51,851 nucleotides of DNA from the IMG/VR virus record IMGVR_UViG_3300006793_000049, positions 1 to 51,851 of that record; one strand, 5' to 3'. Below, piece by piece: positions 4,547 through 36,798 of the stretch. Both the position numbers and the translations under genes were made by a program. Numbering within the stretch: the stretch's first letter is position 1; every line of letters starts with the position of its first letter. This stretch comes from a virus. Below the pieces are notes generated by a model. It was not told where the DNA came from. It saw only the letters and a program-made list of their open reading frames with translations, and ran no database searches.

Positions 4547-5424
4547 TGTTAGATTTTTTATTTGGAACTAAAGAAGCACAACAAACTTCAACAACCTCAG
4601 TAGAACTTCCAGAGTATATGGAGAAAGCTGCTAAATCCTTAACGGGAGTAGCAGGTGATGTAGCCAAAGAAGGTTTTATACCTTACACAGGTCCAAGACT
4701 TGCGGCTATGTCGCAAGCAGAAAAAGACGCAATAGCCAGAGCCCAATCACAGACAGGTATCGCGGGTACACAGGTGGGGCAAGCTTATACTGCTGCAACA
4801 GCAGCGGGGGCACCGATTGGTCAAGCCGATCTCCAAAGATACATGAACCCATACATGACTAATGTTGCGGATATCGCAGCAAGAGAAGCGCGAAAACAAT
4901 CTGCCATTGAGCAGCAAGGTATCGCAGCTCAGTCTGCGCAAGCAGGTGCATTCGGTGGGTCGCGACAAGCTGTACTAGAAGCTGAGCGTCAAAAAAATTT
5001 ACAACAAGGGATTGGTGATATCTATGCGCAAGCCCAACAACAAGCTTTTCAAACTGCACTAGGTGCGGCACAACAAGAAAGACAACAACAATTACAATCT
5101 GCTTTAGGTATGGCAAGTACTGGTCAGGCAGGTCAAGCAGCAAGACAATCAGATTTCCAACAGTCTATGGGCATTGGCGGGCTACAAAGACAGATGGAAC
5201 AACAGGCTTTAGACTTGGGTTACTCTACATTTGTACAGGAAAGAGATTACCCAAAACAACAATTAGGATTCTACTCTGATATTTTAAGAGGAGTTCCGAC
5301 AGGTGAAACAAGAACATACACTGGGACACCAGTTCAACAGCCTAGTTTCTTTTCACAGGCGATGGGTTTAGGTGTGCAAGGATTAGGAGTGGCGGCTAAT
5401 TTAGGTTGGCAGCCGTTAGGATAA
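4546..5424 (+). CDS. Ala/Gln-rich helical internal virion protein
   Basis: 292 residues with a long Ala/Gln/Gly-rich helical core (for example QAQQQAFQTALGAAQQERQ), typical of phage internal or ejection proteins that cross the envelope. The N-terminus MLDFLFG and the TYTGTPVQQPSFF stretch near the end are hydrophobic caps. The start ATG overlaps the end of the preceding gene. A dispersed octamer (4806-4813) lies inside the coding sequence. The function is inferred from composition and position only. Confidence 0.7.
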   Translation: MLDFLFGTKEAQQTSTTSVELPEYMEKAAKSLTGVAGDVAKEGFIPYTGPRLAAMSQAEKDAIARAQSQTGIAGTQVGQAYTAATAAGAPIGQADLQRYMNPYMTNVADIAAREARKQSAIEQQGIAAQSAQAGAFGGSRQAVLEAERQKNLQQGIGDIYAQAQQQAFQTALGAAQQERQQQLQSALGMASTGQAGQAARQSDFQQSMGIGGLQRQMEQQALDLGYSTFVQERDYPKQQLGFYSDILRGVPTGETRTYTGTPVQQPSFFSQAMGLGVQGLGVAANLGWQPLG

Positions 5425-13761: not shown

Positions 13762-15000
13762 TTAGCACATCCAAGAAACCCAATCTTTAGATTTCTTTTT
13801 GATAGGCTCATCAACTACTACAGGCACTTGAAAAGTAACACCATATTCTGGGTGGGTAAACCATAAAGCTTGTTGAGGTCTCTCAGATGTGAATCGGTTT
13901 GAGTAAGCGTATTCATCATAACCCTTTGTAGAGCCATTAACGATACACCCCTTTAATGATATGTACTGATGGTAGTGACCCATAATTACATAGTCAATTG
14001 TTTTATTTTGGTTGTGGTATTCCTGTTTAATCTTCTGGACACCACGTGCAATAGGTCCAAGCATTCCCACAATTCCCGTGCCCCCCGCTACTCCGAGGCG
14101 ATCACCATGGGTCAATAAATAGTTAACACCATACACTTTATATACTGTATCAAAACCTGTAGGTATTTGGAACTGTATTCTCTTATCATTTTTAAAATGC
14201 CTAGATAATAAATTGTATAACATCCAATCGTAATTAGTTTTCGCGGCTTGCTTGTGGCGGTATTGTTTATATGTGCGAGAGTGGTTACCAAATGTACAAG
14301 GTACAAACACTTTACCAAATACATCTGCAAATTTACCTAACGCCCATGTTAAATTGTCTAGTAAATCTAAGACGTGTTCTATATTAGAACCATCATTACT
14401 TTCAGCTAGCTCATCATGAATATCACCCGAGATCATATCACCACCTAACGCACAGATAATACCAGGATACTTAGGGTTAACCATGTGGTTAGTACATAAG
14501 TCTATGGTTGTATTGATAACGTTCTTGAATCTTCTTAATGCTATGGTTCTATCATACTCATTGATATTATTGACCGCTTCTTTATAGACTACTTCACCCC
14601 AGTGAAAGTCAGATAGGAATATAGTAGGCACACCAGGTGCCCCCTTGGCGGGCGTATTCTTTGTCAACCACTTGGGTGGTTTGACTACATGATTATCTGC
14701 TTTAAGTAGGCTGTCTTTCAGTTTCTGGTGGGAAAGATTTTCTTTAGCTAGTAAATCTACTTGTCTTTTAATGTCACGAATTTCTGCGTCGTGTGCGTAC
14801 TGCTGTTCAATCAGTGCTGCCTCAGCGTCGGGGGGCACCGTTGTAGGTTTAACACCCTGTAGTTGGGCTTGTTCAATTCTCTCTATGAGAGTAGTGCGCG
14901 GTATTCCTAGTTCCCTAGAGGCTGCCGCTTTGTTGCCTTTATTTCTAATGACTGCATTTAGAGCGTCAATTAGTATGCTTTTTGCTGTAGTTTTTGCCAT
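13762..15000 (-). CDS. HTH-metallophosphoesterase fusion protein
   Basis: 412 residues from ATG 15000, chosen because AGGAG precedes it; the longer frame to 15207 runs through a divergent promoter. Residues 1-35 hold a Fis-like helix-turn-helix (NKAAASRELGIPRTTLIERI). A helical linker follows. The remainder is a calcineurin-like phosphoesterase with the expected motifs in order: LSDFHWGE, GGDMISGD, GNHSR, LTHGD and GHYH. The Asp, His and Asn residues for two metals are present. The family cleaves phosphodiesters or phosphomonoesters, and the substrate here is unknown. It is the only gene on its strand between two plus-strand blocks and has its own upstream region. Three octamer copies lie inside. 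Confidence 0.85.
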   Translation of the reverse strand: MAKTTAKSILIDALNAVIRNKGNKAAASRELGIPRTTLIERIEQAQLQGVKPTTVPPDAEAALIEQQYAHDAEIRDIKRQVDLLAKENLSHQKLKDSLLKADNHVVKPPKWLTKNTPAKGAPGVPTIFLSDFHWGEVVYKEAVNNINEYDRTIALRRFKNVINTTIDLCTNHMVNPKYPGIICALGGDMISGDIHDELAESNDGSNIEHVLDLLDNLTWALGKFADVFGKVFVPCTFGNHSRTYKQYRHKQAAKTNYDWMLYNLLSRHFKNDKRIQFQIPTGFDTVYKVYGVNYLLTHGDRLGVAGGTGIVGMLGPIARGVQKIKQEYHNQNKTIDYVIMGHYHQYISLKGCIVNGSTKGYDEYAYSNRFTSERPQQALWFTHPEYGVTFQVPVVVDEPIKKKSKDWVSWMC

Positions 15001-15044
15001 AATTATCTCCTGTAGTGCGCGAATATTACCACGTTTTTTCACCC

Positions 15045-15073
15045 TTGTCAAGCAAATAATGATATGGTATACT
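15045..15073 (+). promoter_or_regulatory. Sigma70-like promoter, leaderless
   Basis: TTGTCA (15045-15050), a 17-bp spacer ending in ATGG, then TATACT (15068-15073). The predicted start at about 15080 is exactly the A of the next ATG. The extended ATGG-TAT form recurs upstream of other phage genes. It drives the 15.1-17.9 kb plus-strand operon. Confidence 0.8.
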
Positions 15074-15079
15074 CTTTGT

Positions 15080-15196
15080 ATGAAACTCACAGAAGAAATA
15101 AAAATAACAGCACCTGTTGTTAAAATTGGTGGTGATGCAGTAAAGGTTGAAGCACCCCAATCAGAAGCCTCATCTGATTCTTCACCATCTAAGTAA
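15080..15196 (+). CDS. Small leaderless first gene of the lysis-region operon
   Basis: 38 residues (starts MKLTEEIKITAPVVKIGG, ends in an Ser/Pro-rich tail). The same frame continues upstream, but the promoter places the transcription start at this ATG and no Shine-Dalgarno sequence exists. It is slightly acidic, with no motif and no known function. Confidence 0.6.
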   Translation: MKLTEEIKITAPVVKIGGDAVKVEAPQSEASSDSSPSK

Positions 15197-15205
15197 GGAT
15201 ATATC

Positions 15206-15445
15206 ATGAAAAACCAGAGAGTAAGAAAAGAACCATTGGGTAAGGGAGTGGATAAATACAGAGAGAAAGTACGTTATCCTAATTTAGAAGTAGCTAGACC
15301 TTATGTTAAAAAAATATCAAAAGCTATTGATACAGTTAAAAAAACTTATGAAGATATTAGAGATAAAAAGACTGTTAAAAATCCAGTTAAAAGAAAACAA
15401 ATTAAAATAGCTAGAAGAAAAGATTTAGAAAAGAAATATAAATAA
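15206..15445 (+). CDS. Small basic protein
   Basis: 79 residues, about one third Lys/Arg, helical. AAGGATAT precedes the ATG. The last base of its stop is the first base of the next ATG (TAATG). The strong positive charge suggests nucleic-acid binding. No family is recognised. Confidence 0.65.
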   Translation: MKNQRVRKEPLGKGVDKYREKVRYPNLEVARPYVKKISKAIDTVKKTYEDIRDKKTVKNPVKRKQIKIARRKDLEKKYK

Positions 15446-21315: not shown

Positions 21316-22572
21316 TCACAACTTAACGGGAAACACAAGACCGTCTTGTACTTTTATATATCCCGCTTCCTCCATAGCTTTGACAGTCTGCTCAGATTCA
21401 CCAGGTGCGAGAGTTCTTCGAAGAAGTTCTCGCTTAAAGTGTCGAAGGTGGATGTATCCTTGCTTCGAATTTGTCATGGTTTCTTTAGACCATACTGCCA
21501 TATCTTGCGCTAGTTTACCCGCCCTAGCCATTCCAAAGCCTGCCAACGCACGAGGCATAGCCTCTTCTACTTCAAACATTAAGTCTTTAGTTCTCTGCCA
21601 ATGGTCCCAAGTAATAATCTTATCCTTGGAACTGCTGGCTGAGATAGCTAGAGATACTTTAATAAAGTGTGATACTCTACGTTGTGTATACTCAGCTAAG
21701 TTTGCATCAGTTGGTATTGGATCAAGTCCTGTTTCAATATCTTGATTGATCTTATCAAATGCTCGGTCATCAAATCTCATTGGTCCATACATCTTAGCAA
21801 TCTCAGCTAAGTCATGTCTGAGATTTACAATAGTTGCATCAGATACTCTATCTTGTAATAAAGATTGAGGGATCTTTTCACCATCATAAAACACAGGAAT
21901 GATTCTAGATAATAGACCTTGTGATCTGGCATCTTCTGGTAAGTTATCCACGAACTGCTCGGGTGTAGCACATGCGATCCAATTTAAACAAGGACCTTTA
22001 ATAATATGCTCACCCGCAGTCTTGGTCTTATGTGAGTATTCTTCTTTACTATCCCACATATCAGTCAAGAACATTTGTAGGTAACGCTCATGTCTTGATA
22101 GAAATGTACCAAGCTCTGAAGTTACTAATGTCAATGACCCATCAAAAAATTCTTCACCCATTGTAGATAATCTCATGTCTAGTCTTGAAGCCTTAGACAT
22201 ATCCACTGCTAATTTTTCTGGGGTAATTCTATCCTGTATACAATACAAAGGAAACTCTTTCAAACCGTACTCAGCTAACCCCGAATTAAAATTCTCGTGA
22301 TCTGTTTTTGTACCTATAGGTGTTGTTAGTTTACGAAATATTTTACTGAATGGTAGAATCAAACTTACTGATTTGTTTCGCCCAGGTCCAGCTACAAGCA
22401 CGACGAATATATTCGCACGTATATCGTAGTTAGCCATAGGCATCCACACTCTTCTACCTAATGCACCAGACACAGATGACAGTGCCGCCCAAGTTCTAAA
22501 CAACTTAGGTATCGGACTTTTTTCTGTAGCCTTTACACATGCATCTATATAGTCTTTATATATTCGCGCCAT
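21316..22572 (-). CDS. DUF3987/primase-helicase-like ATPase
   Basis: 418 residues. The N-terminal pattern (ALSSVSGALGRRVWMP, then NIFVVLVAGPGRNKSVSL) matches the P-loop entry of DUF3987-type phage replicative ATPases. The P-loop at 61-68 is unusual, with Asn where the last Gly would be (GPGRNKS). Later, GEEFFDGSLTLVTSELGTF resembles a Walker B-type region. A replicative-helicase role is inferred from the neighbouring polymerase. The start is preceded by AAAGGGGG, formed by an octamer copy (22574-22581). Confidence 0.65.
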   Translation of the reverse strand: MARIYKDYIDACVKATEKSPIPKLFRTWAALSSVSGALGRRVWMPMANYDIRANIFVVLVAGPGRNKSVSLILPFSKIFRKLTTPIGTKTDHENFNSGLAEYGLKEFPLYCIQDRITPEKLAVDMSKASRLDMRLSTMGEEFFDGSLTLVTSELGTFLSRHERYLQMFLTDMWDSKEEYSHKTKTAGEHIIKGPCLNWIACATPEQFVDNLPEDARSQGLLSRIIPVFYDGEKIPQSLLQDRVSDATIVNLRHDLAEIAKMYGPMRFDDRAFDKINQDIETGLDPIPTDANLAEYTQRRVSHFIKVSLAISASSSKDKIITWDHWQRTKDLMFEVEEAMPRALAGFGMARAGKLAQDMAVWSKETMTNSKQGYIHLRHFKRELLRRTLAPGESEQTVKAMEEAGYIKVQDGLVFPVKL

Positions 22573-24115
22573 CGTGCCCCCTTTCCCATGTTTTCATATT
22601 CTTCCATGTGTTACCCACCTCTACAGAGGAAGGTATCACCAGTGTTCTAGTACCTACTTGAATAGGATTAGTCATACACTCAACGATCTTAGGCATCAGC
22701 TCATCTACCTTTTCAGTAGGAACCTGTCCTAAAATCGCGTCGTGTACTTGTCCCAATACTTGAACACCATCATCACATAACTCATTCCACACTCGATATA
22801 ATCCCATGTTCAATAAATCACCAATAGTAGATTGAGGTACGTAAGCAATAGCACCACGTAATGTAGTGGCATCATCCAGCCTGCCCCAGAATTGTCTGCG
22901 TCTACCAATAGGAGTAGTTAGTGTCCCAGTATTTAACAACTCATTTGCTATACTGTCATGCCATTTACGTATTCCAGGGAACGCGCCAGGCACATCAACA
23001 TACTGAGTCTTTTCACCATATACTTTACCATATGCTAGAAGCTCATCAAAACCAGCTTTAGGATCTTGTTGATGCCAGCGATTGACAGAATCAAGACTGA
23101 CCACTCCGCCATAATAAAGTAATTGGAATCGTGTAGCATGTGCTACTTTAATCTTCAGATGTCTAGCCAAAGACGCGGCTGACAAACCATAGTTAGTACC
23201 ATGACCTGCGCGCTTACACATATCCCTAAAACTAAACTGTAAGTAATAAGGATTCTCGGCTAGCTGTCTCTCTTGTTTAGGATCGCCACTCCAACCCATG
23301 TTTTTCCAGACCATTTTAACCACAGTGGTATGCAAGTCACCACTCTCACAAGCATCAATATATCCTTGGTCGTCTGTTAAGTAGGCAACCACACGGGATT
23401 CCGCTTGCTCTAAGTCTGCGTAGAACATAGTCATACCTTCATCGGGTATAAATATTTCGCGCAAGTCTTTCGTTATGTTTTGAAGATTAGTTCCTGTACC
23501 CCAAGGGGCTTCTGAAGATGACCAACGACCTGTCTCTGTACCTGCCACATTATAAGAACAACGAATACGATTATCTTTGTCTCTATCTGTATCAAGCACA
23601 CCAAGTTGTTTGTCGATATCGCGCAACGCAAGGATAGCGTTGGCAAATACTTTTGCTCGTGGGTAGTTCTCTCTTAGTTTTTCAAGAGCCTCACGATCTG
23701 TTGAAACTTTTGACTTACCTTTTTTATATGACATGATCTTAGGTATACCTAAGTGTACATAAAATAAATCCTGTAATTGTTTTGGTGAGGCGTGGTTTAA
23801 GTCTTTACCTGTTGCCGCTTGTGAAAAGAGATTCAACATTCTCTCTAATTTCAAACGCGCTTTTTTCAAGGGGGCACGCATGTTCCTAACTTTCTCTAAG
23901 TCAACGCGTAAACCCTTCTGCATCATTGCCATCGCAGGCTTGAGGCTGTCTAGTTCAAACTGATATGTCTTGGTTGTAGTATCGTCTAGTTCTTTCTTGA
24001 TCTTCTGCCAAATCTCTAGCGTTACCGCACAGTCAAGGGCGCAGTAAGTCCAGAGTGTTTGCTCAGAATCTAGCTCGATATTTTGTATATCTACGTTCTT
24101 TATTATTTTTGCCAT
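22556..24115 (-). CDS. DNA polymerase A, C-terminal part (exo III motif and polymerase domain)
   Basis: 519 residues from ATG 24115 (CAGGAG upstream). It opens with the 3'-5' exonuclease motif III (Tyr24-x3-Asp28, TYCALDCAVT), then the polymerase domain: TETGRW (193-198), motif A DLEQAESR (234-241), motif B Arg297, Lys301 and Tyr309-Gly310, and motif C at His458-Asp459. Motif C reads HDA instead of the usual HDE. Exonuclease motifs I and II are not here but in the gene at 24643-25728. The two products must presumably assemble for proofreading. It overlaps the next gene by 17 bases. Confidence 0.9.
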   Translation of the reverse strand: MAKIIKNVDIQNIELDSEQTLWTYCALDCAVTLEIWQKIKKELDDTTTKTYQFELDSLKPAMAMMQKGLRVDLEKVRNMRAPLKKARLKLERMLNLFSQAATGKDLNHASPKQLQDLFYVHLGIPKIMSYKKGKSKVSTDREALEKLRENYPRAKVFANAILALRDIDKQLGVLDTDRDKDNRIRCSYNVAGTETGRWSSSEAPWGTGTNLQNITKDLREIFIPDEGMTMFYADLEQAESRVVAYLTDDQGYIDACESGDLHTTVVKMVWKNMGWSGDPKQERQLAENPYYLQFSFRDMCKRAGHGTNYGLSAASLARHLKIKVAHATRFQLLYYGGVVSLDSVNRWHQQDPKAGFDELLAYGKVYGEKTQYVDVPGAFPGIRKWHDSIANELLNTGTLTTPIGRRRQFWGRLDDATTLRGAIAYVPQSTIGDLLNMGLYRVWNELCDDGVQVLGQVHDAILGQVPTEKVDELMPKIVECMTNPIQVGTRTLVIPSSVEVGNTWKNMKTWERGHDGANI

Positions 24116-24642: not shown

Positions 24643-25728
24643 CTATTCATCTCTCTTAGTACTCTTTGAAAACTTAGCCATAGTTTTCCAAGCACCCTCG
24701 TTTGTGTATATCGAACCTAAAAAGCCTAAGCCTTTCTGTTGTTCGGGCTGTAGTGCATGCTGGGCATGCATTGTATCGTGGATAGTTCCATTGACTGTGA
24801 TGTTGTATTTATATTCTAACCACGACACATCATACGTTTGATTTTGAGCGACCTTAGTAATCTTCTCGTTCTCAAGAACACGCTTTATCCAAGCCCAAGC
24901 TCGTTGCTCATGGGCAGGGTCGGTCCAATAGTTTTGGAGTACGTTGCGCTTGTCTTTGAATGGTATAACGAGAGCGACAGTATCGCTTGGAGCGAAACCA
25001 ATACAAGTAATAAAACCGCCCCCTGTTTCAATGTCGAAACTGAGTGGCTGATCTGTGTTATTCTCTCTAATAAATTTTTGTTCGAAGTCCTCGAGGTCTT
25101 TGATGTCTGGTTCAATCCATAACTCTCTTTCTTTTATTTTGATTTGTGGTGTGTTGGATTCCTCGACAGCCTTCCTAATATCTGCTAAGACAATAGGACG
25201 GAAGTCGAAGTTTCTAATAACGGCACTAGGACTAAACGTAGGCATAACTTTGGTCCCACCTGTGAGGTCCGATTTAAGAATGGTTCCCCTGTAAGTACCT
25301 ATCTTGTCTAGTCCTGTCAGCGCCCATAACGCAACGCTACCCATGGCAATAATGACATTAGGTTTGCACGCGTTAAGCTCGTTTTGCAACCGCTCTAATT
25401 CACTCTCGTATTCTTCTTTTAAAAAGCCGAAGCCATGCACAGGATACTTGGAGCGCCACTTATTCTCTTTACTAAACTTAGAATAGTTCTTCTTGTTCAT
25501 AAAGAAATGGGCGGGGTTCTCTTGTGCAGGCTTCTGAGCGAGAGCATGCGTAAGCAAACAGTTCTCCACATTTAGTTCTAATATCTCACACATTTTGTGA
25601 AACATTTTTCCCGTACTACCAATCATGATTTCACCAAGACGTTGCTCATCCGTAGTTGGAAAATCAAATACGAAAGCTATCTTGCAATCACCGTTAGGTT
25701 GTTGTGAAGGTACTGTCTGCTTAGTCAT
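24643..25728 (-). CDS. DNA polymerase A, N-terminal part (UDG-like domain and exo I/II motifs)
   Basis: 361 residues. Residues 14-190 resemble the uracil-DNA-glycosylase superfamily (IIAMGSVALWALTG at 126-139, PTFSPSAVIRN at 163-173), a fold found at the front of several phage polymerases. Exonuclease motif I is FDIETGGG (Asp232, Glu234), and motif II is NQTYD (Asn296, Asp300). The protein ends soon after YTNEGAWK (341-348), just before where exo III would come. Exo III starts the gene at 22556-24115. Start 25728 follows the upstream stop by one base. Confidence 0.85.
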   Translation of the reverse strand: MTKQTVPSQQPNGDCKIAFVFDFPTTDEQRLGEIMIGSTGKMFHKMCEILELNVENCLLTHALAQKPAQENPAHFFMNKKNYSKFSKENKWRSKYPVHGFGFLKEEYESELERLQNELNACKPNVIIAMGSVALWALTGLDKIGTYRGTILKSDLTGGTKVMPTFSPSAVIRNFDFRPIVLADIRKAVEESNTPQIKIKERELWIEPDIKDLEDFEQKFIRENNTDQPLSFDIETGGGFITCIGFAPSDTVALVIPFKDKRNVLQNYWTDPAHEQRAWAWIKRVLENEKITKVAQNQTYDVSWLEYKYNITVNGTIHDTMHAQHALQPEQQKGLGFLGSIYTNEGAWKTMAKFSKSTKRDE

Positions 25729-31733: not shown

Positions 31734-31908
31734 CTCTTTTCTCCCTCGCTAATTGAGCGTTGTTCTCTCTCCACGATTGTGCTTCTGCTTCTGCAAATGC
31801 TTGCCTGTCTTCATCTAATTGCTCAAGCATTTTCATTTCATAATCTTCTAGATTATCTTCGTGTCGTCTTTCTTCTAGTTCCATTAGCCATGCTTTTACT
31901 TTACCCAT
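31723..31908 (-). CDS. Small charged helical protein
   Basis: 61 residues from ATG 31908 (GGAAC upstream). It is an almost continuous charged helix (LMELEERRHEDNLEDYEMKM, EQLDEDRQAFAEAEAQ), probably coiled coil. The function is unknown. Confidence 0.6.
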   Translation of the reverse strand: MGKVKAWLMELEERRHEDNLEDYEMKMLEQLDEDRQAFAEAEAQSWRENNAQLAREKRDDN

Positions 31909-32095
31909 TTTGTTCCTCGCTTTCTTCTTGAGTATATTGCTCAAGTATTTTATTGAAGTGTTCGGTTGCTTCGAACCACCCCTGTGCTATGAGTTCGTCA
32001 TCAGTCATTTGGTCTTGCTCTTTGTATCTATCTAAACTATCTGACAATTCAGAGTTCAGTCTGATAATTTCCGTCTGTAATTTACTTATAGTCAT
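31901..32095 (-). CDS. Small coiled-coil protein, leaderless start
   Basis: 64 residues if translation begins at ATG 32095. The -10 box TATAAT ends at 32102, so the transcript should begin at about 32095. The alternative ATG at 32101 abuts the -10 and cannot be in the mRNA. The sequence is helical (ISKLQTEIIRLNSELSDSLD), then acidic. It is the first gene of a box-controlled unit. Confidence 0.65.
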   Translation of the reverse strand: MTISKLQTEIIRLNSELSDSLDRYKEQDQMTDDELIAQGWFEATEHFNKILEQYTQEESEEQNG

Positions 32096-32101
32096 GTCCA
32101 T

Positions 32102-32146
32102 ATTATATTCCTTTCATGATTAAAGTCAAGTTGTTATTGTGTCGCA
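32102..32146 (-). promoter_or_regulatory. TGCGACA-box promoter
   Basis: On the minus strand TGCGACA (32146-32140), 10 bp, TTGACT (32129-32124), 16 bp, TATAAT (32107-32102). The same heptamer and spacing recur at four other minus-strand promoters, pointing to a shared activator. Confidence 0.78.
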
Positions 32147-32347
32147 CCGAGTATACGCGACAAATATCCGAGATAAATCCGAGGGTCTATAAAATTGTAA
32201 ATCTGACCCCCACATCCCTCTAATATACGATTTAAAATATATATTTATTTATTTATATAGTATATATTTGGGCGTGGCACCCTTCAGTTTTACCAACCCT
32301 CGTGTTTATGTCGGACTTATGTCGCATATCTACGTGAGGAAAATACA
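32147..32347. other. AT-rich intergenic region with origin-like features
   Basis: This gap between minus-strand genes holds CCGAGTATACGCGACA (32147-32162), repeated with one change at 36428. It also has two ATCCGAG-like repeats and an A/T-only stretch at about 32230-32268. A second inverted heptamer (TGTCGCA, 32320-32326) lies near the right end. No gene is visible. It could be a secondary origin or an upstream regulatory platform. Confidence 0.5.
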
Positions 32348-33085
32348 CTATGCTACCATGCGATAGCCATGCTCACTCCAACCTCTAACTTTTGGACTGT
32401 TAAAGGTGGGTAATATAGTGCCGTAAGATAAACTCACCATAGCATATGCTAAGTTATTTGGTATAGCTTTAATGCTAGGTGGTCGTAGCTCAGGTAAAAC
32501 TCTATCGGGGGATAGAGAATCACCACTCGCGTTAAAGTATGGTACTGATACCTTAGCTTTAGGATACAAGTTAGGATATGATCTCCATATAGAGGGTTGC
32601 TTCAAGATTTTACGCATAACTTTATGCCTAGGTTCTTCGGGCAAGGACTCTTGCATCCAGTGTTGGCGATTCATTCTTGTACCAATGATAGCAGTACAGT
32701 AGAAGCTATCGAAAGCATTTCTATTTTTGTTCTTAGTATCAGCCACAGATTGCATAGCTTTACGTGTACCAGATTCAGTCTCAATCAGATTGAATCTATG
32801 CAACCCTTCGTATATAGGTGGCTTGACTTTAACGACTACCCACTTAACGTCTTTGAGATACTCGTTGTTGTAGCATGAGAAGTAATTACGTATGATGTTT
32901 AAGTCATACTTATCACTGATTGGCTTAGATAAAGCGTCATAGTTGACAGTATTCTTGTTGATTAATAAAGCTGATGATCTGTTCTTGACCATGTATAGCT
33001 TTTGAATATAACCGTTAACTTCATGGAAAGCTATCAGTGATTTGTGTCCGTATGGACAAGGCGTTAGCTTTAGTTTTCTCGTCAT
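32348..33085 (-). CDS. Protein of unknown function linked to amidoligase operon
   Basis: 245 residues. It has PCPYGHKSLIAF near the start, then a mixed alpha/beta pattern with basic regions. No family is recognised. It is coupled to the amidotransferase gene by a one-base overlap (TAATG) and shares the box promoter upstream of the amidoligase, so it may be a third component of that modification system. AAGGGGG within an octamer copy (33090-33097) precedes the start. Confidence 0.65.
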   Translation of the reverse strand: MTRKLKLTPCPYGHKSLIAFHEVNGYIQKLYMVKNRSSALLINKNTVNYDALSKPISDKYDLNIIRNYFSCYNNEYLKDVKWVVVKVKPPIYEGLHRFNLIETESGTRKAMQSVADTKNKNRNAFDSFYCTAIIGTRMNRQHWMQESLPEEPRHKVMRKILKQPSIWRSYPNLYPKAKVSVPYFNASGDSLSPDRVLPELRPPSIKAIPNNLAYAMVSLSYGTILPTFNSPKVRGWSEHGYRMVA

Positions 33086-34002
33086 TACAGTGCCCCCTTC
33101 TTATCTATTAAGTCATCAAACACGTCATACAAATCCAACTCAGATGCACTGACCAAATCGCTCAGCATTTGGGCGGTACCTGTTGGGTTGTGGTAGACCA
33201 CCTCGGATATGTCTGCTTGGCTTAGCCCCGCAAGGTCGCCTAAGTTGTATGGCTCGTTATCATCACACAAGTCCATAGATTTTTCGGCGTTTGTTTTACT
33301 TACACTTTTGTCGTATTCAAATGTGTTTGAATCATATGAGTATGGATTCCATGCGGAATTGAATGATATGTATTTGTTCTTAGGCTTGCTAGATATGGTA
33401 TCAGTTTGAACATCATAATCGCTACCCATACCACGATTGATTGAGTATGTATTGGATAGCCACATGTTATCCATAGTTTCACCATGGTCCTCGTTGGCAA
33501 TAGTAAACTTACCATTGGAACCGTCAAGGAATAGCAGTTTATCAGAGCCGATTGAATCTTCAATCATCTCTAACCAATCCTTGTTGTATATAAGTTCGGG
33601 ATTGTTAGATAGCATTGGACGTAGTACCCACTTGACATATTGGTGTGTATCAGATTTGTCTACATCAATCATTGGTGTGGGTAATTGTGGACCGTTATGC
33701 ATTAACCATATGTCCCTGTTGTGTTGCTTCTTGTTAAGCACTTCGAATGGGTGGCAGTTAGCTTTGTTAGTACCACCGTTAGTTGTGAATCTGAAGTGTA
33801 AACCCATTGGGATTTTCATATCTTTGTATTTATCCCAGAGTTTGATAACATCATACTCATTGTTTGGCAGTTCTTTGAATGTTTGAATCTTGCCGTCTGC
33901 AAGAAACATACCACCAAATCCGTCTGAATTGTTGGAGTATGCTGACTTGAGTAAATTAGATTTTAACTCACTTGCATTGTCGCTTTTAATAATTAAACAC
34001 AT
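33085..34002 (-). CDS. Class II glutamine amidotransferase (Ntn-hydrolase)
   Basis: 305 residues. The N-terminus is Met-Cys2, the nucleophile after Met removal, followed by family motifs: NSDGFGG (25-31), LHFRFTTNGG (68-77), CHPFEV (83-88) and LMHNGP (100-105). Such domains release ammonia or transfer an amide from glutamine. It is coupled to the amidoligase by one base (TAATG). The C-terminal third is unassigned. The pairing suggests that glutamine-derived nitrogen is supplied to, or removed from, an amidoligase product. Confidence 0.82.
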   Translation of the reverse strand: MCLIIKSDNASELKSNLLKSAYSNNSDGFGGMFLADGKIQTFKELPNNEYDVIKLWDKYKDMKIPMGLHFRFTTNGGTNKANCHPFEVLNKKQHNRDIWLMHNGPQLPTPMIDVDKSDTHQYVKWVLRPMLSNNPELIYNKDWLEMIEDSIGSDKLLFLDGSNGKFTIANEDHGETMDNMWLSNTYSINRGMGSDYDVQTDTISSKPKNKYISFNSAWNPYSYDSNTFEYDKSVSKTNAEKSMDLCDDNEPYNLGDLAGLSQADISEVVYHNPTGTAQMLSDLVSASELDLYDVFDDLIDKKGAL

Positions 34003-35270
34003 TAGCTTTCCTCACTTTCGTTTTGTATATTTTTAGCTTTACCCTTAGTATAGCCCTTGCGAACTAGCCATGAGAACAGGTAAGGGTATTGACCTCTGCT
34101 CTCAGATTTAGTCATGTACCGTACATAGTTGGTATATGATAAACTATTTACTGATTCTGTATCTTTGTCAATGCCTACAGTCTTAACAAAGTTGCATAAA
34201 GAATCTACAAATTCAAGGTTTCTAAATATACCTTGCTTTGCAATATTACCTCTGAATATACGGAACTCAATAGTACGTGGCTTGTGCGTTGCCAATGCTT
34301 CGTATTTATCAGAGCGTTGTAAACTATCTTTTAGGTTTTTAGATTTAAAGGCTGACCATTGGGCTGAACTACGCCCCGCAATACGCTCAATGAAGTCACG
34401 ATTGTGCTTACCATTGACGAACACCAATAGCTTGCCAATATCTAGGGGTGTCACGCTTGTACGATCTACGTGTATATGCATACCACAAGTTGAGGTATTC
34501 CATGATGATAGTTGATCTGCAAAACCTTTCTCGCAGAAATCTGACCAACGTTTCTTTTGAAATGATAATGTAGCGGGTGCAGTCACGATTTCGAAACCAT
34601 TATTAAGTGACCCGTCATGCTTACATATTGCGAAGCCTCGTAGTATTTGTTCCACATCTTCAGCAATTTCGTATGAGGCACTTGATCGTCTTTCTACTTC
34701 GATTTCAGCTCCCATAAGTCGCTTCTCGTTGCCATGATACAGTGGTGATAGCTCGTTAGTCACATCATAGTCGTATGAGTGAACACCATTTTCGTCATAA
34801 TCTGCTTCATCATCTTCATAGGGGTAATCATCATCATGATAGTATTGCCCGTCATCATCATGGTATCTATAACTACTACTAAGACAGGATTCACAAACGT
34901 AGGTATCAGTACCCTCTATATAGGTTAGTTCTTCAGTATTCTCTACATTCTCGCAATCATCACAGGTTGAAAATTGATACTGTATATCGTTGCGTATTTG
35001 ATTTGCCAATACTTGAAGTTTGTGTATTGGAAATGAATTATTACGTAGTTCGTCAACTGTAGAAGTTTGTGTTCTCCACATGTTTATCTCATTGTGAACA
35101 GAAGTATGTAAGTCTATAGCAAATTGGTATAACTCACCGTCATCAAGATTAAGGACATCTTGGAATTTCTCGACACTACGGTTGCACTCAAAGTAAAACG
35201 TTTTTAGATAGCTATACAATGATACACTTAGCAATTTAGTAGTGCGTAGTCTAGTCAATAATGTAAACAT
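34002..35270 (-). CDS. Putative amidoligase (glutamine-synthetase-like fold)
   Basis: 422 residues. A treble-clef or ribbon zinc-binding motif lies at Cys103, Cys106, Cys126 and Cys129, then an Asp-rich linker (137-160), then amidoligase motifs: GAEIEVE (187-193), KHDGSL (217-222), FEIVTAP (226-232), CGMHIHVD (262-269) and TIEFRIFRGN (333-342). The family ligates amines to carboxylates with ATP and is found in phage peptide-modification operons. GAGG precedes ATG 35270. A box promoter is directly upstream. Confidence 0.82.
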   Translation of the reverse strand: MFTLLTRLRTTKLLSVSLYSYLKTFYFECNRSVEKFQDVLNLDDGELYQFAIDLHTSVHNEINMWRTQTSTVDELRNNSFPIHKLQVLANQIRNDIQYQFSTCDDCENVENTEELTYIEGTDTYVCESCLSSSYRYHDDDGQYYHDDDYPYEDDEADYDENGVHSYDYDVTNELSPLYHGNEKRLMGAEIEVERRSSASYEIAEDVEQILRGFAICKHDGSLNNGFEIVTAPATLSFQKKRWSDFCEKGFADQLSSWNTSTCGMHIHVDRTSVTPLDIGKLLVFVNGKHNRDFIERIAGRSSAQWSAFKSKNLKDSLQRSDKYEALATHKPRTIEFRIFRGNIAKQGIFRNLEFVDSLCNFVKTVGIDKDTESVNSLSYTNYVRYMTKSESRGQYPYLFSWLVRKGYTKGKAKNIQNESEES

Positions 35271-35302
35271 GTAAACCTCACTTTCATAACATTATTAAAG
35301 AC

Positions 35303-35347
35303 AGTATAACACTAAGTGCGAAAATGTAAACTGTACATTGTGTCGCA
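35303..35347 (-). promoter_or_regulatory. TGCGACA-box promoter for the amidoligase operon
   Basis: On the minus strand TGCGACA (35347-35341), 10 bp, TTTACA (35330-35325), 16 bp, TATACT (35308-35303). The spacer contains half of an 11-bp inverted repeat (ACTAAGTGCGA at 35311-35321 with TCGCACTTAGT at 35343-35353), so a repressor or dimeric regulator could bind across it. Confidence 0.8.
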
Positions 35348-35383
35348 CTTAGTAAGAAGTTTTCAAAGTCAATTTTCCACATA

Positions 35384-35650
35384 TCAACTGTTGTTAATAG
35401 TAGTGCTATCGACTTTGATTTCAGTTTCAATGCTTAAAGAATTGTTAGCATATAGCGACACAAATCCCTGTTTTTTAAGCAGTGTATTAAACCTAGAATA
35501 CGTAGCTGGATAAGGCACTCCAGCACGTTCTAGGAATGGTGTTTCGGTATTTAGTGAACTAAATGCGTAGTTATATAGTGCAGTCACATTACCAAACACT
35601 TTGATATCGTCAAGGAAATTAGCCCTTGTTGTGTATACAGTTTTAGCCAT
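35384..35650 (-). CDS. Small protein, unknown function
   Basis: 88 residues. It contains FLDDIKVFGNVTALYNYAFS and RAGVPYPATYSRFNTLLKKQ, a helical pattern that could be a small DNA-binding fold, but no HTH is convincing. It overlaps the upstream gene by 8 bases and is likely coupled. Confidence 0.6.
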   Translation of the reverse strand: MAKTVYTTRANFLDDIKVFGNVTALYNYAFSSLNTETPFLERAGVPYPATYSRFNTLLKKQGFVSLYANNSLSIETEIKVDSTTINNS

Positions 35651-35864
35651 TATTTACCCCCCATTTATTGCGTAAGTTATTGATTGTTAGGCTATTGTTA
35701 GTAAACTCTGATTTTGCTTCGATATAATCCATAAATCTCAGCTTATCAAATCGGTTGTTTGATCTCGCTAATATGTGCGTTATATCCTCAACCATAGCTT
35801 TGGTTGGATTATGCTTTGCAATTAGTTCAGCGAATTCAATAAAATCTTTTCTTGTTAATGCCAT
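35643..35864 (-). CDS. Small helical protein, unknown function
   Basis: 73 residues (FIEFAELIAKHNPTKAMVED, then RFDKLRFMDYIEA). It is the first gene downstream of a box promoter. Its ribosome-binding region reads ATGGGGGCATAAAATG, a one-base variant of the dispersed octamer. The function is unknown. Confidence 0.65.
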   Translation of the reverse strand: MALTRKDFIEFAELIAKHNPTKAMVEDITHILARSNNRFDKLRFMDYIEAKSEFTNNSLTINNLRNKWGVNNG

Positions 35865-35888
35865 TTTATGCCCCCATTAATTAAATCT

Positions 35889-35933
35889 AGTATGCCATAA
35901 CCATTTTCAGAGTCAATGGCACATTCTGTCGCA
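35889..35933 (-). promoter_or_regulatory. TGCGACA-box promoter
   Basis: On the minus strand TGCGACA (35933-35927), 10 bp, TTGACT (35916-35911), 16 bp, CATACT (35894-35889). It precedes the gene at 35864 with a short leader. Confidence 0.78.
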
Positions 35934-35941
35934 CCTAGCAA

Positions 35942-36172
35942 TTATCTGCTAGATGCTAATTTCATATATTTTGCATAGTCTGGGTGTTGTTGAGCCTTAC
36001 GAAGTAAAGCCACGCGACCACCATCTGAAAGCCTTTGATTTTCAGATTTAAACACATAACCCGTAAAAACGGATTTTGCAGGATTTTCATAGCGGTCTTT
36101 TTGACCGTTAAATATAGGTGATTTTCCTAAAGGTAGGAAACCACGCCCAATGATGCCCATGTTTGATTTCAT
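35942..36172 (-). CDS. Small basic protein, unknown function
   Basis: 76 residues. It is Gly- and Lys/Arg-rich in the first half (MGIIGRGFLPLGKSPIFNGQ) and helical later (VALLRKAQQHPDYAKYMKLA). Coding is preceded by GAGAGG and a box promoter. It is among the first genes of the early region, so a host-takeover role is possible but unproven. Confidence 0.65.
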   Translation of the reverse strand: MKSNMGIIGRGFLPLGKSPIFNGQKDRYENPAKSVFTGYVFKSENQRLSDGGRVALLRKAQQHPDYAKYMKLASSR

Positions 36173-36204
36173 AATTTATTGCCTCTCAATCAATTTCTAA
36201 ATTC

Positions 36205-36248
36205 AGTATGACAGATTGAATTTTAAAGTCAATGTCAAAACTGTCGCA
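36205..36248 (-). promoter_or_regulatory. TGCGACA-box promoter
   Basis: On the minus strand TGCGACA (36248-36242), 9 bp, TTGACT (36232-36227), 16 bp, CATACT (36210-36205). A TTGACA also lies just upstream of the -35 used here. Confidence 0.75.
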
Positions 36249-36406
36249 CCCCCAACAACCGTTTAATAGTATGATAAATAACTAATGAGATCGACCTACA
36301 TTTGAAATAGTTATTTAAAAAGTCTATTAAATCAGTTGTTAAAAGTAGGTTAGAGTATGACACCATGATTTAAAATAGCAAGGTTATTTTGGTCACATGG
36401 GGCGGG

Positions 36407-36486
36407 TTGTCGCAGTGCGACAATTAGCCGAGTATATGCGACACTATATCCTGCGACAAAATGCCTGATGCGACATATAGTCGCAC
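36407..36486. repeat. TGCGACA palindrome and array
   Basis: A perfect 17-bp palindrome TTGTCGCA-G-TGCGACAA (36407-36423) is followed by direct heptamers at 36437, 36452 and 36469 and an inverted near-copy at 36480. Spacings between starts are 21, 15 and 17 bp, near or above one and a half to two helical turns. The same heptamer sits at fixed distance upstream of nearby minus-strand promoters. It may be an operator array for the same regulator, or origin iterons. Confidence 0.75.
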
Positions 36487-36555
36487 TTTATTTTGGTCAT
36501 GGGGTACCCTACGATTTTCACGCATCAGTACTTCATGCCTACAAGTGTAGGTGAA

Positions 36556-36571
36556 AGCCCCCGAAGGGGCT
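36556..36571 (-). terminator. Hairpin with UUCG tetraloop
   Basis: On the minus strand AGCCCC-TTCG-GGGGCT forms a 6-bp GC-rich stem capped by the very stable C(UUCG)G loop, 12 bases after the stop of the 54-residue gene. Only TTT follows, so it is terminator-like but the T-tract is short. Confidence 0.6.
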
Positions 36572-36582
36572 ATCATCTAGAC

Positions 36583-36747
36583 TTATCTGTTAGCTGTGGC
36601 AACTTGTCTCGCAAACCAGAGTGAGTCGATTTGCCACACTTTGTACACAGGTGCGACTTTTTGTCCCATGTAAATTTTGTTAGTTCTGTTTTTCACCTTA
36701 CGCTTGAGCCAACCGTAAGATTTAGATTTTAATAATGTATTTTCCAT
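36583..36747 (-). CDS. Small basic early protein, leaderless start
   Basis: 54 residues from ATG 36747 (MENTLLKSKSYGWLKRKVKN, then VYKVWQIDSLWFARQ). It is basic with several Trp residues. The ATG lies 6 bases after a -10-like TCTACT (36754-36759), part of a box promoter, so the mRNA would be leaderless. It is the right-most minus-strand gene with such a promoter and may be a very early gene. Confidence 0.6.
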   Translation of the reverse strand: MENTLLKSKSYGWLKRKVKNRTNKIYMGQKVAPVYKVWQIDSLWFARQVATANR

Positions 36748-36753
36748 ATATCA

Positions 36754-36798
36754 AGTAGAACATATCCCGAAAGAAAAGTATATGCGCAATATGTCGCA
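36754..36798 (-). promoter_or_regulatory. TGCGACA-box promoter (weak core)
   Basis: On the minus strand TGCGACA (36798-36792), 10 bp, ATACTT in the -35 position (36781-36776), 16 bp, TCTACT (36759-36754). The poor -35 but exact spacing suggests stronger dependence on an activator. Confidence 0.6.

Follow-up and report, generated by a model that had tools for sequence, protein, structure and literature searches.

A TGCGACA dyad upstream of phage promoters as a predicted site of the host redox regulator RegA

The viral contig IMGVR_UViG_3300006793_000049 (IMG/VR; 51,851 bases, analysed whole and here called the window) carries the heptamer TGCGACA just upstream of a group of its leftward promoters, which raises the question of which protein reads this box. 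The best candidate for the activator is a response regulator of the host, of the RegA/PrrA/ActR type, and not a small phage protein. A host regulator is favoured because the heptamer belongs to a dyad that occurs in phages without a common regulator gene, lies at regB-regA in bacterial chromosomes and fits the RegR box.

We counted 13 copies of TGCGACA in the window, against a mean of 3.75 and a maximum of 10 in 100 dinucleotide shuffles. Eleven copies lie within 32140-36798 and the other two in coding sequence (4709 and 51432). The initial annotation had described the heptamer as almost absent beyond its promoters, with one copy in a late gene; this overlooked the box at 32320-32326 and an array of half-sites (Table 1). 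It had also listed five promoters with TGCGACA 9-10 bp upstream of the -35 and a 16-bp spacer. Four of them (32102, 35303, 35889 and 36205) stand, and at the fifth (36754) the box and the -10 are 32 bp apart (31-32 bp elsewhere) without a recognisable -35. Hexamer scores of 9-11/12 at spacings of 9-10 and 16 were reached at random positions of the region with a frequency of 0.0034 to 0.0004. A sixth promoter has a decayed box 9 bp upstream of its -35, in the register of the others, and its counterparts in relatives have an intact TGCGACA 9 bp ahead of the -35.

Absence of the boxes from phages sharing these genes had been named beforehand as evidence against an activator. They proved to be conserved: a box was found within 200 bp upstream at 12/15 relative loci for the replication-operon promoter, at 16/20 for the amidoligase promoter and at 12/17 for the promoter of gene 36583, where ~0.008 per locus is expected. 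With the same 200-bp limit, counted from the called start, fewer loci had a box for genes 35643 (2/18) and 35942 (5/17). These low counts may partly reflect start calling, since boxes and a good promoter are present there in most such relatives.

The heptamer is one half of the dyad TGCGACA-N3-TGTCGCA, which abuts the -35. Aligned boxes of the relatives show a weak second half, with T, G and C at +10, +11 and +13. The best dyad of the window (TGCGACA-TAT-AGTCGCA, 36469-36485, 13/14) lies in the array, which also includes TGTCGCA-G-TGCGACA (36408-36422) and resembles arrays in L025, L033 and L036. Among the promoters, that at 35889..35933 matches the dyad at 12/14 positions (TGCGACAGAATGTGCCA).

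Scanning viral contigs for the box, TG and then a promoter added three contigs that hardly resemble the window at the nucleotide level and have a perfect dyad (best: TTGTCAATGCGACATTTTGTCGCATTGACAA). The 22-mer TGCGACANNNTGTCRCATTGAC, comprising dyad and TTGAC, occurred in at least 120 viral stretches and its reversed control in one; TTGAC belonged to the scan pattern and was thus selected in those matches, a selection that did not apply to the window family. Phages bearing the 22-mer span 32-61% guanine-plus-cytosine (GC), and in the boxes that these phages have besides the selected 22-mer, the dyad is visible, with more than 1 bit at three positions. Twelve whole motif-bearing records have no gene family common to all when clustered by blastp only, and the records may be incomplete; a structural module is present in most, and two (G016 and G022) have neither terminase nor portal in common with the others. 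Two cultured phages have an intergenic dyad before a promoter, Ochrobactrum phage OC in the layout seen elsewhere and Caulobacter phage phiCbK with the dyad 11 bp (one helical turn) further up; their matches have E-values of 2-8, and the support comes from layout and intergenic position rather than from the match alone. The dyad was not enriched in the nearest cultured phages by terminase (HTVC023P, HTVC027P, 023Pt_psg01, CRP-902, CRP-810 and DSL-LC04).

The dyad keeps a fixed distance to the -10. In host chromosomes, -10 elements peak exactly 23 bp after it (41/152 sites; mean 5.8 per offset). The peak lies at the same place in other phages (16/195, against 6.0 per offset) and at 22 bp in the window family, where the spacer is one base shorter (8/43, against 2.1 per offset). 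These offsets place the dyad centre at ~-43, as in class II activation, where a dimer site for CRP or lambda cI likewise abuts the -35 with its centre near -42. Unlike CRP or cI sites in sequence, the dyad would be read by a regulator of the Fis type. A regulator site with activator-like geometry, as initially proposed, is well supported by the position directly upstream of the -35, the fixed register and the conservation, and we regard the box as almost certainly functional.

The strongest result of the analysis is the place of the dyad at regB-regA, which encode a redox-sensing bacterial regulatory pair. A dyad of at least 12/14 stands at the regB promoter in 17/26 Nitrosomonas genomes, and two more have 10-11/14 at the same place, 1.38-1.59 kb upstream of regA and no more than ~280 bp upstream of the regB reading frame. 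Shuffled 3.9-kb stretches usually gave a dyad score of ~10, and at most 13. Rhodocyclales, Porticoccus, Pandoraea and a gammaproteobacterium (14/14) likewise have dyads of at least 12/14 at this promoter. Because the non-Nitrosomonas genomes had been picked for holding the 22-mer, we took an unselected sample. Nine unselected gammaproteobacterial genomes had RegA and enough upstream sequence; five had a dyad of 12-13/14 at -1366 to -1504 and one further genome a dyad of 11/14.

The 22-mer is rare in bacterial and archaeal genomes: 257 billion bases held only 54 stretches with it. They belong to Pandoraea, Nitrosomonas, Porticoccus and other proteobacteria and to phage-like contigs, of which one lies in a Pelagibacteraceae assembly. 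The motif occurs in 23/26 Nitrosomonas genomes (reversed control: 0-1). Nitrosomonas europaea has ~17 dyads, mostly before genes for FecI-type sigma factors, a TonB protein, TonB-dependent receptors and a c-type peroxidase, as named by reading the translations, without a family search.

A RegA orthologue was present in 12/12 motif-bearing bacterial genomes tested and in 11/55 other gammaproteobacterial genomes (E 1e-25). The query was a Rhodobacter sphaeroides PrrA sequence, which matches an alphaproteobacterial genome at 83%. Eleven of the 12 orthologues, that of the Pelagibacteraceae included, have the recognition helix HRRTLQR, and the Bdellovibrionales protein has HRRSLQR. The RegR box quoted in PMC5506826, GNGRCRTTNNGNCGC, agrees with the dyad core at all fixed positions except TT. 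Inverted GCGAC/GTCGC half-sites with 5-bp spacing likewise make up the dyads of other phages and those in host chromosomes, again with TT excepted. The core GCGAC-N5-GTCGC is a point of likeness to the RegR/PrrA/RegA boxes of Bradyrhizobium and Rhodobacter, and in beta- and gammaproteobacteria the dyad lies at regB-regA itself. In Methylomonas, TonB-type genes are reported to be RegA-dependent, and chromatin immunoprecipitation backs direct binding only at feo (PMC13274454). Our search of open-licence papers for the RoxR site found no consensus. The dyad is very probably the RegA box of beta- and gammaproteobacteria.

For the window, the boxes are predicted sites of a RegA/PrrA/ActR/RegR-type response regulator of the host with a Fis-type helix-turn-helix (HTH). 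A RegA dimer would bind TGCGACA-N3-TGTCGCA just upstream of the -35, centred at ~-43, and would touch RNA polymerase holding the host housekeeping sigma factor. The leftward phage genes (amidoligase operon, small genes and replication operon) would thereby be turned on. We infer RegA as the binder, the activation and the early timing of these genes, and consider it likely that RegA activates the promoters of the window.

Several observations weigh against this assignment. At the window promoters the dyad scores are 8-12/14, with a perfect upstream half-site and a degenerate downstream half. Binding of RegA is therefore probably weaker in the window, or assisted by cooperation with the array at 36408-36485. 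No dyad was found upstream of regA in 29 SAR11 and 20 alphaproteobacterial loci, and SAR11 chromosomes had no perfect dyad except in a phage-like contig and in unrelated GC-rich palindromes. Experimentally, RegA/PrrA sites are degenerate, without a sharp consensus (PMC5506826, PMC4263372). The poor second half-sites are among the reasons why our confidence in activation by RegA is no higher.

A DNA-binding protein of the phage itself might activate middle promoters, its site resembling the host box by convergence or old borrowing. The initial annotation had named small phage proteins (genes 36583, 35942, 35384 and 37013), and small unassigned genes do adjoin the boxes, several of them conserved in the family; in addition, the window protein encoded at 13762-15207 has a Fis-type HTH. 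Against these small proteins, the dyad also occurs in phages without their genes and in bacterial chromosomes before regB-regA and TonB/FecI-type genes. The lack of a gene family shared by the twelve records, with the limits of that clustering, likewise argues against a phage activator, and the Fis-type protein is found in 2/16 records, near relatives only. We consider a phage activator unlikely. Chance clustering of the heptamer, to which nothing but the degenerate downstream half-sites could be credited, is already contradicted by the copy number in the window, the conservation and the excess of viral stretches over the control, and is hardly credible.

RegA-type regulators can act as repressors in addition to activators. 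The phage promoters might be repressed, or held until a redox change, by RegA or a different host protein, and the contact of the dyad with the -35 would suit such a role. The position at ~-43 and the poor -35 hexamers of the host at many N. europaea dyads argue for activation instead, and repression seems slightly less likely even than a phage activator. It is more doubtful still that a different host regulator, Fis/NtrC-type or of another fold, reads the dyad and has regB-regA as just one target. The Nitrosomonas regulon, mostly iron, TonB and FecI genes and not respiratory ones, would suit such a regulator, and NtrC sites (TGCACC-N5-GGTGCA) share the geometry of the dyad. However, the dyad lies at regB promoters in several orders, as autoregulation by RegA would predict, and it matches the RegR box.

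The closest known case to the proposed use of RegA comes from cyanophages, whose Pho boxes are sites for the PhoB protein of the host (Zeng and Chisholm 2012, as cited in PMC10976474) and were examined by gel shifts (PMC10976474). There too, operators of a host two-component regulator lie in phage promoters and phage genes follow host physiology. The present boxes differ in regulator (RegA, redox) and in motif, with binding predicted from sequence, and they occur at several promoters of one genome and in many unrelated proteobacterial phages. Phage use of a host response regulator is thus already known, and RegA in such a role was not found in the open-licence literature: a search there that combined phage promoters with PrrA, ActR or RoxR returned nothing relevant, and a text search for the heptamer only noise. 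Whether many aquatic proteobacterial phages use RegA as a transcription switch, so that the course of infection would depend on how the host respires, we judge to be evenly balanced. If true, gene expression of widespread aquatic viruses would be tied to a known host redox sensor, as a second case beside PhoB. Published RegR/PrrA/RegA sites are more degenerate and variable in spacing, whereas the dyad has a sharply defined sequence and a constant register with the promoter. It would provide a sharp RegA consensus for beta- and gammaproteobacteria, where no strong RegA/PrrA consensus had been reported (PMC5506826, PMC4263372), and would allow the RegA regulon to be searched for and the link between phage and host to be tested directly.

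Table 1. TGCGACA boxes and associated promoter elements in the window
Feature	Position	Strand	Elements and remarks
Replication operon promoter (first gene 31901-32101)	32102..32146	-	box 32146-32140; -35 TTGACT 32129-32124; 16-bp spacer; -10 TATAAT 32107-32102
Amidoligase operon (35270-32348) promoter	35303..35347	-	box 35347-35341; -35 TTTACA 35330-35325; -10 TATACT 35308-35303
Promoter of small genes 35864-35384	35889..35933	-	box 35933-35927; -35 TTGACT 35916-35911; -10 CATACT 35894-35889
Promoter of gene 36172-35942	36205..36248	-	box 36248-36242; -35 TTGACT 36232-36227; -10 CATACT 36210-36205
Promoter of gene 36747-36583	36754..36798	-	box 36798-36792; no good -35; -10 TCTACT 36759-36754
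Sixth promoter	36354..36397	-	decayed box TGTGACC 36397-36391; -35 TTGCTA 36381-36376; 16-bp spacer; -10 CATACT 36359-36354
Array of five TGCGACA half-sites	36408..36485		upstream of sixth promoter; copies 36408-36414 (-), 36416, 36437, 36452, 36469 (+)
Isolated TGCGACA	32320-32326	-	between amidoligase operon end and replication-operon promoter; no promoter in register

The window derives from an uncultured aquatic phage that is podovirus-like by gene content (terminase, portal, a GroES-like protein, DNA polymerase A and ribonucleotide reductase). Its leftward genes extend from ~36.7 kb to 18.5 kb and its rightward late genes start at 37.4 kb. Neither the Rfam nor the tRNA scan gave a match in the window. 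On the minus strand, 24643-25728 encodes a uracil-DNA glycosylase domain fused to a 3'-5' exonuclease domain, with the polymerase domain in a separate gene (22556-24115). The Fis-type HTH of the 481-amino-acid protein encoded at 13762-15207 (minus strand; near relatives only) is N-terminal (Pfam HTH_8), and the rest of the protein is phosphoesterase-like. This protein was rejected as the regulator for being confined to near relatives.

Further elements accompany the boxes. The isolated box sits in a strongly conserved stretch (window 32300-32345) and is retained in most relatives. Downstream of the sixth promoter, the stretch 36236-36370 (minus strand) has no convincing gene, and its fold is a long hairpin (-32.9 kcal/mol, z -4.05). 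Parts of this stretch recur in relatives, and it is possibly a small RNA or leader. At the place of the array, five relatives (L003, ~2095-2166; L004, ~5039-5109; L005; L007; L027) have two boxes flanking a near-perfect palindrome, CCGACAATATATCGAACAAAATTCGATATATCGG, which looks like the operator of another protein. Most Pandoraea matches (at L167, L169, L174 and other loci) have in common the tandem dyad CGCGACAACTTGTCGCACC-TGCGACA-N3-TGTCGCATTGACA; no name could be given to its target gene. In many other phages (L056, L059, L071, L114 and others), a GC-rich hairpin, CCCCCGAAGGGGG, immediately precedes the dyad, which gives the impression that every unit starts just after a terminator.

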